Positions 8,418-26,703 of a DNA stretch of 64,000 nt are shown in pieces (the first letter of the stretch is position 1; each line of letters begins with the position of its first letter). The notes beneath the pieces are model-generated. The model made no database searches. It was given only the letters and a program-made list of their open reading frames with translations, and was not told the origin of the DNA. The stretch comes from Bacillota bacterium (GTDB lineage Bacteria > Bacillota > Clostridia > Lachnospirales > Lachnospiraceae). The stretch is from assembly GCA_030526045.1 (NCBI GenBank), contig JAUNDN010000005.1:19110-83109 (forward strand). Reading direction: 5' to 3'. Position numbers and translations under genes: made by a program.

Positions 8418-10163
8418 TTACTCTACATCCTGTAATGCTGCAAAATCTTCTTCTCCTGTACGAACCTTTACAACCTTGTCTACGTTATATACAAAGATCT
8501 TACCGTCTCCGATATGTCCTGTATACAGAGCCTTCTTCGCAGCTTCAATAACGGATTCAACAGGAATCTTGCTGACAACAACCTCAACCTTAACCTTAGG
8601 AAGCAGGGTTGCATCAACCTCAACACCACGATACATTTCTCCTGCACCCTTCTGGATACCACAACCCATAACCTGTGTCACTGTCATACCTGTTACACCG
8701 AGATCGTTCATGGCCTTCTTTAAATGATCGTATCTGGACAGCTTTGCAACCACAACCACCTTGTAGATTCCGGTTGCTGCAGAAGGCGCTGCAACCACCT
8801 TGACAGCTGCATCCTTCTGTACTTCAGAAGCTTCTGCATAATCATCTGTTCCAAGATCAGTGTTTTCATTAACATCCATCGTCATTGTATTGGAAATATC
8901 CATAATACTGAAGCCTGCATATGCAGATGTAAGACCATGCTCGCAGGAATCAAGTCCTACAATTTCTTCCTCTTCAGAAACACGAAGACCGGCTGTAGCC
9001 TTAATAATCAGGAAGGTAATGGTAATTGTCACTGCCGTCCATGCAGCCACAGTTATAAATCCAAGAATCTGAACTCCGAGTAATCCAAATCCGCCACCGT
9101 AGAAAAGACCTACTACCGAGTCATTTCCGGGAGCTGATGTTGTTGCAAAAAGACCGACTGCAATCGTACCCCAAATACCGTTTAAGCAGTGAACCGCTAC
9201 TGCACCTACAGGATCATCAATATGAAGCTTATAATCAAGTAACCAGACACCAAATACTACCAGCACACCGGCAACCGCACCAATAATGATTGCACCGGTA
9301 ACATCTGTCACATCACAGGGTGCTGTAATGGCAACAAGTCCTGCAAGGGAAGCATTCAGACACATGGAAACATCAGGCTTACCATATTTTACCCATGTAA
9401 ATACCATACATACTACTGTAGCAATTGCAGGGGCAACCGTTGTTGTCAGAAATACTGAGCCCAACTGTTCAACGCTGGTACATGCTGCACCGTTAAATCC
9501 GTACCAGCCAAGCCACAGAATAAATACGCCAAGACATCCGATAGGAAGGTTATGTCCGGGGAATGCATTTACCTTTGTAACCTTTCCATTTTTGTCAGTT
9601 ACAAACTTACCGATACGGGGACCTAAGATCTTTGCGCCAATCAGAGCGGAAATGCCGCCAACCATATGGATTGCGCAGGAACCGGCAAAATCATGGAAGC
9701 CAAGCTGTGCCAGCCAGCCGCCACCCCAGATCCAGTGAGCTTCAATAGGATAGATCAAAGCGGAAATAATTGCGGAATAAACACAATAGGATAAGAACTT
9801 AGTTCTCTCAGCCATTGCACCGGAAACAATTGTTGCGGTAGTCGCACAGAACACCAGATTAAATACAAAGCTTGACCAGTCAAAGCTCTCATAGCTTGTA
9901 AAAATATCAAATCCGGGTTTTCCGATAAAACCAACTAAGTCTTCTCCAAGTAATAAGCTAAAACCAATCAGAATGAAAACAACTGTACCAATACAGAAGT
10001 CCATCAGATTTTTCATCAGGATATTACCTGCATTCTTTGCTCTGGTAAAGCCGGTTTCTACCATCGCAAACCCGGCCTGCATCCAGAACACCAGCGCTGC
10101 ACCGATTAAAAACCAGACAGCAAATACCTGACCACTTACAGCACTCATAATTTCTTCTGTCAT
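8418..10163 (-). CDS. Ammonium transporter fused to a C-terminal PII (GlnB/GlnK) domain
   Basis: 581 residues. Residues 1 to about 405 are an Amt channel with about 11 membrane helices; the two pore histidines are in DFAGSCAIHMVGG and PVGAVAVHCLNG. An acidic, Ala-rich linker follows. Residues 467-581 are a complete PII domain with the T-loop (QKGAGEMYRG), the B-loop GDGKIF and the C-loop RTGE. Free PII proteins block Amt pores in response to 2-oxoglutarate and ATP/ADP, so the fusion carries its own gate. The T-loop Tyr51 that GlnD uridylylates in proteobacteria is Val here (RGVEV). Start: ATG at 10163 behind GAGGAGG; an earlier in-frame ATG overlaps that site. The gene stands alone, with a strong promoter and a two-hairpin leader. 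Confidence 0.95.
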   Translation of the reverse strand: MTEEIMSAVSGQVFAVWFLIGAALVFWMQAGFAMVETGFTRAKNAGNILMKNLMDFCIGTVVFILIGFSLLLGEDLVGFIGKPGFDIFTSYESFDWSSFVFNLVFCATTATIVSGAMAERTKFLSYCVYSAIISALIYPIEAHWIWGGGWLAQLGFHDFAGSCAIHMVGGISALIGAKILGPRIGKFVTDKNGKVTKVNAFPGHNLPIGCLGVFILWLGWYGFNGAACTSVEQLGSVFLTTTVAPAIATVVCMVFTWVKYGKPDVSMCLNASLAGLVAITAPCDVTDVTGAIIIGAVAGVLVVFGVWLLDYKLHIDDPVGAVAVHCLNGIWGTIAVGLFATTSAPGNDSVVGLFYGGGFGLLGVQILGFITVAAWTAVTITITFLIIKATAGLRVSEEEEIVGLDSCEHGLTSAYAGFSIMDISNTMTMDVNENTDLGTDDYAEASEVQKDAAVKVVAAPSAATGIYKVVVVAKLSRYDHLKKAMNDLGVTGMTVTQVMGCGIQKGAGEMYRGVEVDATLLPKVKVEVVVSKIPVESVIEAAKKALYTGHIGDGKIFVYNVDKVVKVRTGEEDFAALQDVE

Positions 10164-10195
10164 AACACTTTTCCTCCTCATCATGAAATTAAAAA

Positions 10196-10245
10196 AAGCG
10201 AATGCAAACGGCCCTTGTCCCTTATCAAGCTCCTTTGCTTCGCTT
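10196..10245 (-). promoter_or_regulatory. Second leader hairpin of amt-PII, terminator-like
   Basis: On the minus strand AAGCGAA-GCAAA-GG pairs with CC-TTTGC-TTCGCTT with single-base bulges, and seven T residues follow at once (10190-10196). It ends about 10 bases before the GAGGAGG site of amt-PII. It looks like a conditional terminator (attenuator) or a structure that masks the ribosome site. Its 5' arm repeats the GCAAAGG of the first hairpin. Confidence 0.6.
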
Positions 10246-10268
10246 CTTCTAACTTATTAAAATAAAAA

Positions 10269-10293
10269 GACACTACGGTTTTCCCATAGCGCC
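10269..10293 (-). promoter_or_regulatory. First leader hairpin of amt-PII, shared with pyrG
   Basis: GGCGCTATGG pairs with CCGTAGTGTC (10 bp including G-U pairs) around the loop GAAAA, and TTTTT follows. Together with the preceding AAAGCAAA it forms AAAGCAAAGGCGCTATG, found again at the pyrG transcript start at 25022-25038. It lies only about 10 bases after the expected transcription start. Function unknown; see findings. Confidence 0.65.
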
Positions 10294-10310
10294 TTTGCTT
10301 TATGTATTAC

Positions 10311-10339
10311 ATAATATCATCCTGTTTCTCATCTGTCAA
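10311..10339 (-). promoter_or_regulatory. Sigma-A promoter of amt-PII
   Basis: TTGACA (10334-10339) and TATTAT (10311-10316) on the minus strand are separated by 17 bp. The -35 box abuts the stop codon of the upstream acetyltransferase gene. Transcription would start near 10304, giving a leader of about 140 bases. Confidence 0.8.
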
Positions 10340-11221
10340 TCATTTTTTACAATTTTTTACAAACAGTTTGTAATGACGGTCAGATTCAATCACATCGCGG
10401 TCAAATAAAAACCCCAGTTTCTTCAACAGCCGCAATGAGCTTTCATTTTTTTCATCCACAAGAGCCTGTACCGCTTCAAATGCAAGTTCTTCCCGCGCAT
10501 ATCTTAGAATTGCTTCACACACCTCGTAGGCATATCCTTTTTTCTGAAAAGGCACACCGATCACAAAGCCAAGCTCCGGGATTTCATATCCTTCTCTTAC
10601 ACTAAGTCCCGCTCTTCCGATAATTTCTCCGCTCTCTTTCAGAATCACTGTCCAAAGTCCAAACCCGTAAAAACCATAAATCTGTTCAATATAAGACTTC
10701 ATATAGGCAATTTCAGATTCTTTTTCAGGGAACAAATTCTCCATATAATATGTGATGGATGGATCCTGATAAATCCGATAAAAATCCTCCACATCAGACA
10801 CCATGCTCTCCCTGACACGTAATCTTTCTGTCTCGAGAATATTCCAGGGAAGACCGGCAAGACGGCAAAAAGCTTCTTCATAAGAACGATATTCCAGCGA
10901 GAAAATGTCCTCCACCGCATACTTTGCCGCCGAGAGATTTTGATCTTTATTGTTTTCATGATAAACTGCAATCATAAAGTACCCCAGGCATAAAAGTCTT
11001 TGAAGGCAAAGAGGATCATCTGTAAGGATCAGCATTTCCCCAGGAGAAACAAGCCCTGCCTGTATCATTTCTTCACACAGCTTCTCGCCACGTTCTGAGT
11101 CCAGCTTCCGAAACAGAACTTTAACGTCTCCCTCTTCTGTCCTTTTCAGAATTTCACCCCTGCATCTATCCACAGCTTCATAATAATATTCAGTTAGCAA
11201 AAACAGAATGTATTTCATCAT
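10340..11221 (-). CDS. GNAT (RimJ/RimL-type) acetyltransferase with an N-terminal HAD-like extension
   Basis: 294 residues. The C-terminal 165 or so (from TERLRVRES) are a RimJ/RimL-type GNAT domain: GFGLWTVILKESGEIIGRAGL, then the acetyl-CoA loop PFQKKGYAYEVC and NESSLRLLKKLGF. The first 125 residues do not belong to GNAT. The phrase MLILTDDPLCLQRLLCLGY and what follows recall the C-terminal half of a HAD phosphatase-like fold, but the catalytic Asp motif is absent. Substrate unknown. The ATG at 11221 is chosen because CGGAG lies six bases before it; an adjacent ATG (11218) is equally possible. It is transcribed divergently from the cyclophilin gene. Confidence 0.8.
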   Translation of the reverse strand: MMKYILFLLTEYYYEAVDRCRGEILKRTEEGDVKVLFRKLDSERGEKLCEEMIQAGLVSPGEMLILTDDPLCLQRLLCLGYFMIAVYHENNKDQNLSAAKYAVEDIFSLEYRSYEEAFCRLAGLPWNILETERLRVRESMVSDVEDFYRIYQDPSITYYMENLFPEKESEIAYMKSYIEQIYGFYGFGLWTVILKESGEIIGRAGLSVREGYEIPELGFVIGVPFQKKGYAYEVCEAILRYAREELAFEAVQALVDEKNESSLRLLKKLGFLFDRDVIESDRHYKLFVKNCKK

Positions 11222-24982: not shown

Positions 24983-25011
24983 TTGACAGTCCCTATGGCC
25001 AATGCTAAAAT
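24983..25011 (+). promoter_or_regulatory. Sigma-A promoter of pyrG
   Basis: TTGACA (24983-24988) and TAAAAT (25006-25011) with 17 bp between them and TGC before the -10. An A/T-rich stretch lies upstream. Transcription should start near 25019, directly before the conserved hairpin. Confidence 0.8.
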
Positions 25012-25029
25012 CCAATTTATAAAAGCAAA

Positions 25030-25063
25030 GGCGCTATGAGTAGGACTCATAGCGTCTTTTTTT
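25030..25063 (+). promoter_or_regulatory. Attenuator-like leader hairpin of pyrG
   Basis: GGCGCTATGAG pairs with CTCATAGCGTC (11 bp, one G-U) and seven T residues follow, as in an intrinsic terminator located before the gene. The 5' arm and the bases before it (AAAGCAAAGGCGCTATG, 25022-25038) are identical to the amt-PII leader. Bacillus pyrG is controlled by attenuation through extra G residues at a GGG transcript start; no such G run is seen at the expected start here. Confidence 0.7.
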
Positions 25064-25098: not shown

Positions 25099-26703
25099 AT
25101 GGCAGTAAAGTATGTATTTGTGACGGGTGGAGTCGTATCAGGTCTGGGAAAGGGAATCACGGCCGCTTCATTAGGTCGTCTGTTAAAAGCACGTGGATAC
25201 AAGGTAACCATGCAGAAATTTGATCCATATATCAACATTGATCCGGGCACCATGAACCCGATCCAACACGGAGAAGTTTTTGTTACGGAGGATGGGACAG
25301 AAACCGACCTTGATTTAGGCCACTATGAAAGATTTATTGATGAAAGTCTGGACAAGAATTCCAATGTAACCACTGGGAAAATTTATTGGTCTGTACTTCA
25401 GAAGGAGCGCCGCGGTGACTATGGCGGTGGAACCGTACAGGTGATTCCCCATATCACCAATGAAATCAAAAGCCGGTTTTATCGGAATTTTACAGACAAA
25501 GATACAAGAATCGCCATTATTGAGGTAGGCGGAACAGTTGGTGATATTGAAAGCCAGCCTTTCTTGGAATCCATCCGTCAGTTCCAGCATGAAGTAGGTC
25601 ATGAAAATGCCATTCTCATCCATGTAACACTGATTCCGTATCTGAAAGCATCTCAGGAAATGAAGACTAAGCCCACACAGGCGAGTGTCAAAGAATTGCA
25701 GGGAATGGGTATCCAGCCTGATATTATCGTGTGCAGAAGCGAACACCCCTTAGATCAGGGAATCAAGGATAAAATCGCTTTGTTTTGTAATGTTCCGGGC
25801 AGTCATGTGCTTCAGAATCTTGATGTGGAATATCTGTATGAAGCACCGCTTGCCATGGAAAATGAACATCTTGCCCAGGTTGCCTGTGAATGCTTAAAGC
25901 TTGACTGTCCGGAGCCGGATCTTGGGGATTGGAAAGCGATGGTGGAATCCTTACGCACTCCTGCCGGCGAGGTTTCGGTTGCGATTGTAGGTAAATATGT
26001 ACAGCTTCATGATGCCTATATCAGTGTAGTTGAAGCTTTAAAGCACGGCGGTATTTTTAATCATGTTTCCGTCAATATCAAGTGGATCGATTCTGAAACC
26101 GTCACTCCTGAAAATGTAGGGGAACTACTGAAAGGAGTCAGCGGAATCCTTGTTCCGGGAGGCTTTGGTCCTCGCGGCATAGAAGGGAAGATTTGTGCCA
26201 TTCAATATGCCAGAGAAGAAAAGGTTCCTTTTCTTGGTCTGTGCCTTGGCATGCAGCTCTCTATTGTGGAATTTGCCCGCCATGTAATCGGTTACCACGA
26301 TGCACACAGTATCGAGCTTGATCCTGCTACCACGCACCCTGTAATCGCTCTTTTGCCGGATCAAAACGGCGTGGAGGACATTGGCGGGACCTTACGTTTA
26401 GGCTCCTATCCCTGCGTGCTCGACAAAAATTCCAAAGCTTATTCCCTATATGAAGAGGAGACAATCCATGAACGTCACCGCCATCGCTATGAAGTAAACA
26501 ATGATTACCGGTCTGTCCTTACCGAGCATGGCATGATGCTTTCCGGTATTTCGCCTGACGGACGTATCGTAGAAATGTGTGAACTCCCGGAGCATCCCTT
26601 CTTTGTTGCAACGCAGGCACATCCGGAGCTGAAGTCAAGACCTAACAGACCTCATCCGTTGTTTAAGGGCTTTATCAAAGCAGCGGTTGAATATCAGAAA
26701 TAG
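25099..26703 (+). CDS. pyrG: CTP synthase
   Basis: 534 residues. The amidoligase half starts with [17 protein letters not shown] and contains CRSEHPLDQ; the C-terminal class I glutamine amidotransferase has the LCLGMQ nucleophile Cys and the His-Pro-Glu (AHPE) near the end. It makes CTP from UTP with glutamine nitrogen and ATP. It is a single plus-strand gene with its own promoter, leader hairpin and terminator. The ribosome site is AGGTAGGGG. Confidence 0.97.

Follow-up and report, generated by a model that had tools for sequence, protein, structure and literature searches.

The 17-nucleotide repeat AAAGCAAAGGCGCTATG is probably the target of an ANTAR antiterminator protein, a predicted one-hexaloop attenuator located at the 5' end of nitrogen-assimilation operons and of some glutamine-using operons. 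The window, that is the whole stretch of 64,000 nucleotides analysed, contains two exact copies, at 10285-10301 on the minus strand ahead of amt-PII and at 25022-25038 on the plus strand ahead of pyrG, as stated in the original prediction, and a search of the window that allowed three mismatches found no further copy (0.17 expected; one shuffle in 100 reached 2). The core 12-mer AGCAAAGGCGCT is present at two sites in the 2.68-Mb genome, those of amt and pyrG, while the reversed pattern, used as control, gives no match. Both copies lie at a predicted transcript start, overlap an intrinsic terminator and begin 9-10 bases after the -10 of a promoter (TTGACA-17-TATTAT for amt, TTGACA-17-TAAAAT for pyrG), in agreement with the spacing of about 10 bases proposed earlier. 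The features of the two sites are as follows.

10311..10339, minus strand: sigma70-type promoter of amt-PII (TTGACA 10339-10334, 17-bp spacer, TATTAT 10316-10311), from sequence, with the same layout in relatives.
About 10305-10303, minus strand: predicted amt-PII transcript start, from the promoter sequence.
10288..10299, minus strand: predicted hexaloop antiterminator hairpin 1 of amt, AGC[AAAGGC]GCT, from sequence, fold and covariation of homologous stems.
10261..10296, minus strand: intrinsic terminator 1 of amt, 13-bp stem 10296-10284 / 10278-10266 and U-tract, from fold and covariation in 23 leaders.
10227..10240, minus strand: predicted hexaloop hairpin 2 of amt, AAGC[AAAGGA]GCTT, from sequence, fold and tandem modules in relatives of the genus.
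10191..10249, minus strand: intrinsic terminator 2 of amt, overlapping hexaloop 2 and with a T7 end, from fold (-24.1 kcal/mol, z -5.1).
8418..10163, minus strand: amt-PII, a fusion of ammonium transporter and PII domain, from family models.
24983..25011, plus strand: sigma70-type promoter of pyrG (TTGACA 24983-24988, 17-bp spacer, TAAAAT 25006-25011), from sequence and relatives.
About 25018-25020, plus strand: predicted pyrG transcript start, from the promoter sequence.
25024..25035, plus strand: predicted single hexaloop antiterminator hairpin of pyrG, AGC[AAAGGC]GCT, from sequence and fold, with A1 and G4 kept in the variants of the genus.
25027..25063, plus strand: intrinsic terminator of pyrG, 15-bp stem 25027-25041 / 25045-25059 and U-tract, from fold (z -8.5).
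25099..26703, plus strand: pyrG, glutamine-hydrolysing CTP synthase (TIGR00337, 817 bits).

Inside AAAGCAAAGGCGCTATG, AGC[AAAGGC]GCU forms a 3-bp stem with a C:G closing pair and a six-base loop with A at position 1 (A1) and G at position 4 (G4); its predicted fold has a stability of -1.1 kcal/mol. The AAAGC at the front of the repeat is not included in the terminator; the last three of these bases make up the 5' arm of the hexaloop. Since the loop and the 3' arm are the start of the 5' arm of the terminator, hexaloop and terminator are mutually exclusive. The hairpin proposed originally is retained as a terminator with U-tract, with a stem that begins at AAAGGC rather than at the front of the 17-mer and that folds into 13 bp (amt) or 15 bp (pyrG) instead of the 10-11 bp given; the hexaloop with its ANTAR character and the second amt module (10249-10191) had been missed. 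The isolated terminator stems fold at -17.6 kcal/mol (amt) and -20.6 kcal/mol (pyrG), and the two leaders of the window at z -6.1 and -6.6. In Bacillus, pyrG control requires a G-run at the transcript start. The predicted pyrG start in the window has no G-run, so the contrast drawn with Bacillus fits the sequence.

Hexaloop 2 of the amt leader lies 47 nt beyond hexaloop 1, with a complete terminator in between, and the two modules look like two attenuators in series. Tandem amt modules are also encountered in the genus (L362-L365, L367, L376 and L379), with AAAGGG, AAAGAA and AAAGGA as second loops. The amt-PII protein likely starts with MTEEI at 10163, on comparison with relatives, the listed reading frame beginning at 10184; its Ammonium_transp domain covers residues 23-419, and the P-II domain, at the C-terminus, residues 475-578.

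Further leaders are found in the same genome. The leader of glnA and the ANTAR gene has a similar layout with a GAAC/GTTC hexaloop stem, as has that of gltB, a gene with a GATase_2 domain, with a CGC/GCG stem. The gltB leader was located by pattern search rather than by covariance model: it came from the matches to the literal 10-mer GCAAAGGNGC, which was rejected as a marker of the element, as its 46 matches in the genome (42 inspected) are mostly in coding sequence. A leader with an AAC/GTT stem (L229, G000:C47:56284-56332) precedes a cytidylate-kinase-like gene and, behind it, one for a Peripla_BP_6 binding protein; beside pyrG, the former is the second gene of nucleotide-enzyme type with the element. 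A TAAC/GTTA leader (L173, G000:C25:8163-8208), a weak covariance-model match (E 0.36), precedes a class IV aminotransferase resembling D-amino-acid transaminase and then a D-glutamate-cyclase-like gene. None of the five GATase_7 genes of the genome (two asnB-like, purF, glmS-like and one more, named by eye) carries a hexaloop leader; a lone CAATGAGG is located within 400 nt upstream of purF.

A scan of public genomes with an exact 15-mer returned at least 118 stretches, 80 of them with titles. Among the titled records, leaders with promoter and terminator are from Lachnospiraceae or other Clostridia; at least 17 leaders lie ahead of type III glutamine synthetase and at least four ahead of amt (judged by eye from N-termini), and among the matches listed pyrG, carA and LL-diaminopimelate aminotransferase are single cases. 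The genes downstream of L048, L058, L086 and L164 were confirmed by family models. Many matches, among those listed, were set aside as apparently due to chance, being located in coding regions of unrelated phyla.

A covariance model (R1), built from 23 leaders and seeded with AAAGGC, was used to search the family, represented by 80 genomes, one per genus; 61 of them gave a total of 122 matches. The sample contains at least one of the R1 seeds again (L061 is identical in sequence to L177). Eighty-nine matches were inspected, the others being weak rows, duplicates on the opposite strand and rows of the window's own genome already examined. Of the 89, 77 (from 49 genomes) have an A1/G4 hexaloop on a stem of three or more base pairs, G-U pairs included, a loop conservation that is partly inherent in the AAAGGC seeding of R1; the C:G closing pair, which R1 favours, is present in 82. 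The genes behind the 77 hexaloop leaders, assigned to families by clustering around scanned representatives, are glutamine synthetase (GS, 23), amt/PII (16), asnB/purF (11), gltB (6), CP_ATPgrasp (3), pyrG (2), class III aminotransferase (2) and six single families, dapL and SBP_bac_3 included; 8 are unassigned. Core nitrogen genes (GS, amt/PII, asnB/purF, gltB and pyrG) follow 58 of the 77 matches with a hexaloop vs 3 of the 12 without (p 0.001). This is the enrichment ahead of nitrogen and glutamine genes that was looked for on the basis of the original prediction. In the class-wide search, 42 of 196 genomes matched R1, and several of the 28 class loci examined have CAGC/GCTG stems, ahead of type III GS (GSIII), amt and also asnA, the last confirmed by family models behind L339 and by eye behind L341 and L350.

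Two groups of less familiar genes were also encountered. R1 matches in four genera (L222, L223, L234 and L259), three of the four with a hexaloop, precede circularly permuted ATP-grasp genes, identified by scanning for L234 and by clustering for the other three, which hints at a nitrogen-related role of this family. In two families, hexaloop/terminator leaders (L218 and L349) precede similar uncharacterised proteins, which start with MSAFDKVPSGLPGMDK and MAAFEKTCSGIPDMDE.

Control of pyrG was surveyed at 30 loci (19 from the genus and 11 from other families, out of 36 rows), chosen by gene and not by motif. Within the genus, 14 of the 19 loci have the hexaloop and terminator upstream; their loops are AAAGGC (9), AAAGGT (3), AAGGGC (1) and AATGGC (1), so that positions 3 and 6 vary while A1 and G4 are constant. 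The element is absent upstream of the other five, namely L297, L300, L308, L311 and the divergent pyrG of L322. At the pyrG promoters of the other families it was found at none of the 11 loci, one of which (L314) has just 74 nt readable; L323 has one chance-like hexaloop 182 nt upstream. Because most loci of the genus have the element and none of the 11 in other families does, pyrG looks like a lineage-specific recruit. The pyrG element is also present in two further genera of the family (L183 and L221) and at L058. A joint loss of ANTAR and the pyrG element in a subclade of the genus was considered and rejected, as G081, G085, G086, G100 and G101, which are without the element, have ANTAR.

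Covariation of the hexaloop stem was measured in an alignment of 84 distinct 22-mers from the 89 matches, with four pairs; the script that set the register weighted consensus letters at pairs 1 and 2 slightly. Paired cells amount to 90.5% vs 76.6% in shuffled alignments, double-changed cells to 53 vs 14.3 (at most 17 in slid controls), and the covariation score to 0.477 vs 0.217; for each of the three measures none of 500 shuffles is as high. Two coarser measures are not significant in this alignment: the number of pairs with a double change is equalled or exceeded in 50 of the 500 shuffles, and that of pair types in 74. A 79-row subset gives 89.9% paired and 52 double changes. R1 had a preference for AGC in the 5' arm, and other arms were thus recovered in spite of the model. 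In the terminator (23 leaders), 97.0% of cells are paired vs 88.5% in shuffles and double changes number 24 vs 6.9, while pairs with a double change are not significant (219 of 500 shuffles reach the observed value). With correction for the tree, 32 GSIII leaders leave just 3, 2 and 3 contrasts for pairs 2, 3 and 4, of which five are concordant, none opposite and three undecided; the outcome agrees with covariation but is of no statistical power. The covariance check of the stem thus returned covariation for both structures, the terminator and the alternative hexaloop hairpin.

These data bear on the proposal of a shared attenuator or operator. The attenuator part is supported, as read from sequence, by gene enrichment, covariation and co-occurrence with ANTAR; the operator part is disfavoured because the arms of the stem vary in a compensatory manner on an unchanged loop. 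A nitrogen repressor of GlnR/TnrA type acting at a DNA operator near +1 would account for the conserved position near the transcript start and for the nitrogen genes, yet the conserved piece is a loop on a covarying, RNA-like stem. A pattern that we take to represent GlnR/TnrA-type sites matches the window 37 times at one mismatch vs 27.8 expected (7 of 100 shuffles as high), which is not a clear enrichment. No match falls inside 1 kb around the pyrG start, and two (10345-10361 and 10378-10394) are located ahead of the amt -35. An operator of this kind is extremely unlikely.

The element co-occurs with ANTAR genes across genomes. In the family, R1 matches are found in 59 of 72 genomes with ANTAR vs 2 of 8 without (p 0.002); both matches in ANTAR-less genomes are partial and lack the 5' arm, and none of the 77 hexaloop leaders comes from such a genome. 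The figures are 37 of 101 vs 5 of 95 for the class (p 5e-8) and 19 of 22 vs 0 of 2 for the genus, where the ANTAR-less genomes are G084 and G092 (59% complete) and three genomes with ANTAR give no R1 match. Two of the five R1-positive ANTAR-less genomes of the class were examined: the match in G281 has no G4 hexaloop, and that in G153 is a true-looking GSIII leader. The latter (L344) has a clear hexaloop, and ANTAR was not detected in this genome, which is 96% complete; a missed gene or another regulator is possibly the reason.

An attenuator that works without ANTAR, with an incidental hairpin and with PII, GS, a metabolite riboswitch, translation, start-site effects or another factor or ligand in control, is unlikely. 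The low predicted stability of the hexaloop is in its favour, whereas the 5' arm of the hexaloop, which lies outside the terminator in most leaders, covaries with the 3' arm. The co-occurrence of element and ANTAR also speaks against it, as do the lack of a G-run at the predicted start and the window leaders, which match no Rfam family, riboswitches included, at gathering score.

The genome contains one ANTAR gene, directly behind glnA, which is of type I by family model. The protein of 182 residues (L046:6169-6717) has PF03861 at residues 129-178 (59.1 bits, cut-off 27.3), and Pfam identifies the ANTAR domain alone, with no receiver family match. At the phospho-Asp position, 22 aligned ANTAR proteins have Gly (19), Ser (2) or Asn (1), by eye against 1s8n. 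Because the receiver-like part has no phosphorylatable Asp, a protein contact or a ligand, and not a kinase, probably conveys the signal, with GlnA and PII as candidates guessed from gene context. A glutamine synthetase-like C-terminus is located just upstream, by eye, in 19 of 21 family ANTAR loci whose upstream reading frame was examined, these 21 being extracted from 30. The residue equivalent to EutV Met172, which plugs the hexaloop (PMC8934654), is Met in all 22 proteins, while that equivalent to Tyr164 is His or Phe. The ANTAR domain of the regulator aligns with those of AmiR (1qo0) and EutV (6wsh). The regulator resembles AmiR in a receiver-like part that has no phospho-acceptor Asp and in His at the position of Tyr164 in EutV; unlike AmiR, it has no known AmiC-like partner, its neighbour gene being glutamine synthetase.

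The 2022 EutV structure paper, PMC8934654, we take to be Walshe et al. 2022. The ANTAR target motif is a hexanucleotide loop with A1 and G4 on a short stem (Ramesh 2012, PMC3369931), with a C:G closing pair in NasR SELEX (PMC7496416). The leaders described here share these characters with those of eut (EutV), nasF (NasR) and amiE (AmiR); as in those systems (PMC3369931), the 3' part overlaps an intrinsic terminator, the genes are nitrogen-related and an ANTAR gene is present in the genome. They differ in having one hexaloop, a few nucleotides from the predicted transcript start, in the loop AAAGGC being the base of the terminator stem, and in a regulon that extends to pyrG, purF, carA, asnB and asnA. 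The EutV leader requires two hexaloops with a linker of about 5-12 nt, deletion of the first (P1) ablates induction, and linkers of 3 or 14 nt reduce it drastically (PMC3369931). EutV binds isolated hexaloops, and its dimer binds one at a time; the structure paper, which asks why two are nonetheless required, proposes recruitment and antitermination hairpins, redefines the minimal ANTAR target as one hexaloop and leaves the role of single hexaloops open (PMC8934654). For NasR, the affinity for a single hairpin is lower by a factor of about 12 (about 12 vs 1 uM; PMC7496416). The need of known ANTAR antitermination for a close pair and this weak binding by NasR speak against the one-hexaloop reading proposed here.

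With respect to layout, 64 of the 77 leaders have a promoter-like site of at least 8/12 whose -10 ends 10-20 nt upstream of the loop, vs about 20 expected from shuffled upstream sequence; for sites of at least 9/12 at the same distance, the count is 61 vs 5.3. Sixty leaders have their best promoter-like site at this distance, and none of these has space for an upstream hexaloop. Downstream, with a linker of 2-25 nt, 9 of the 60 have a hexaloop-like match vs 4.8 expected by shuffling; by eye, each of the nine overlaps the stem or apex of the terminator or the U-tract. These counts weigh against a classical two-hexaloop leader of EutV/NasR type with an overlooked second hairpin. In favour of such a leader, the amt leaders of the window and of the genus do hold two modules, and another C[AA.G..]G hexaloop follows at 25-190 nt in 8 of the 60 family leaders. 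In the window, however, 47 nt and a complete terminator separate hexaloops 1 and 2 of amt, whereas a linker extension of 20 nt abolished EutV antitermination in vitro (PMC8934654), and none of 13 re-scanned pyrG leaders of the genus has a second C[AA.G..]G module downstream. The two-hexaloop reading is accordingly very unlikely. Other A1/G4 stem-loops are seen 41-65 nt away in the pyrG leaders L303 and L312.

Nitrogen ANTAR regulons with ammonium transporters, PII and genes of glutamine and glutamate synthesis are already in print: those predicted for Desulfotomaculum acetoxidans, D. reducens and Pelobacter also contain an ammonium transporter, PII and glutamate and glutamine synthases, and were found with a dual-hairpin model, unlike the single-hexaloop leaders described here (PMC3369931). 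An antiterminator protein for ammonia assimilation has likewise been proposed for nitR-glnA of Clostridium acetobutylicum, in an account that features an antisense RNA, and an ANTAR gene lies in the GS-GOGAT cluster of C. thermocellum (PMC4676874). The apparent departure from the known ANTAR system is the single hexaloop at the start and a regulon reaching, by sequence, to pyrG and, elsewhere, to purF and carA. The main text of Ramesh 2012 (PMC3369931), supplementary tables being outside this count, has no mention of pyrG, and a literature search, with most subscription papers outside its reach, found no text joining ANTAR and pyrG control. On single-hexaloop ANTAR targets it found only PMC8934654, while the supplementary tables of Ramesh 2012 may list some such leaders.

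From these observations we infer ANTAR as the factor, a response to nitrogen, the direction of control and the sufficiency of one hexaloop. By default, the nascent RNA would fold the sequence beginning AAAGGCGCUAUG into an intrinsic terminator located some 40 nt from the start, which would halt transcription. An active ANTAR protein, presumably under nitrogen limitation, would bind the emerging AGC[AAAGGC]GCU hairpin and sequester the loop and the 3' arm; the terminator would be left without its 5' arm, and polymerase would read through into amt-PII, pyrG, glnA-ANTAR, gltB and others. Nearness to the start, which would hold the regulator in the vicinity of polymerase and of the 5' end of the RNA, may stand in for P1, and the absent phospho-acceptor suggests partner-gated control as in AmiR. 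More tentatively, the leaders could represent an extreme-5' single-hexaloop class of ANTAR target, in which a pseudo-receiver protein gated by contact with glutamine synthetase or PII is loaded near the promoter with P1 unneeded, and in which nitrogen supply directly sets CTP synthase, other glutamine amidotransferases and ammonium assimilation; this wider proposal is possible, and we hold it with some doubt.

The leaders look like a natural case of single hexaloops in transcription attenuation. The 77 leaders from 49 of the 80 family genomes have, wherever a start is predictable, a single hexaloop directly on the terminator, and the open single-hexaloop question is therefore testable with ready-made substrates. 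Together they form a covariation-backed candidate nitrogen regulon for Clostridia, in which the recruitment of pyrG would couple nucleotide synthesis to nitrogen supply.
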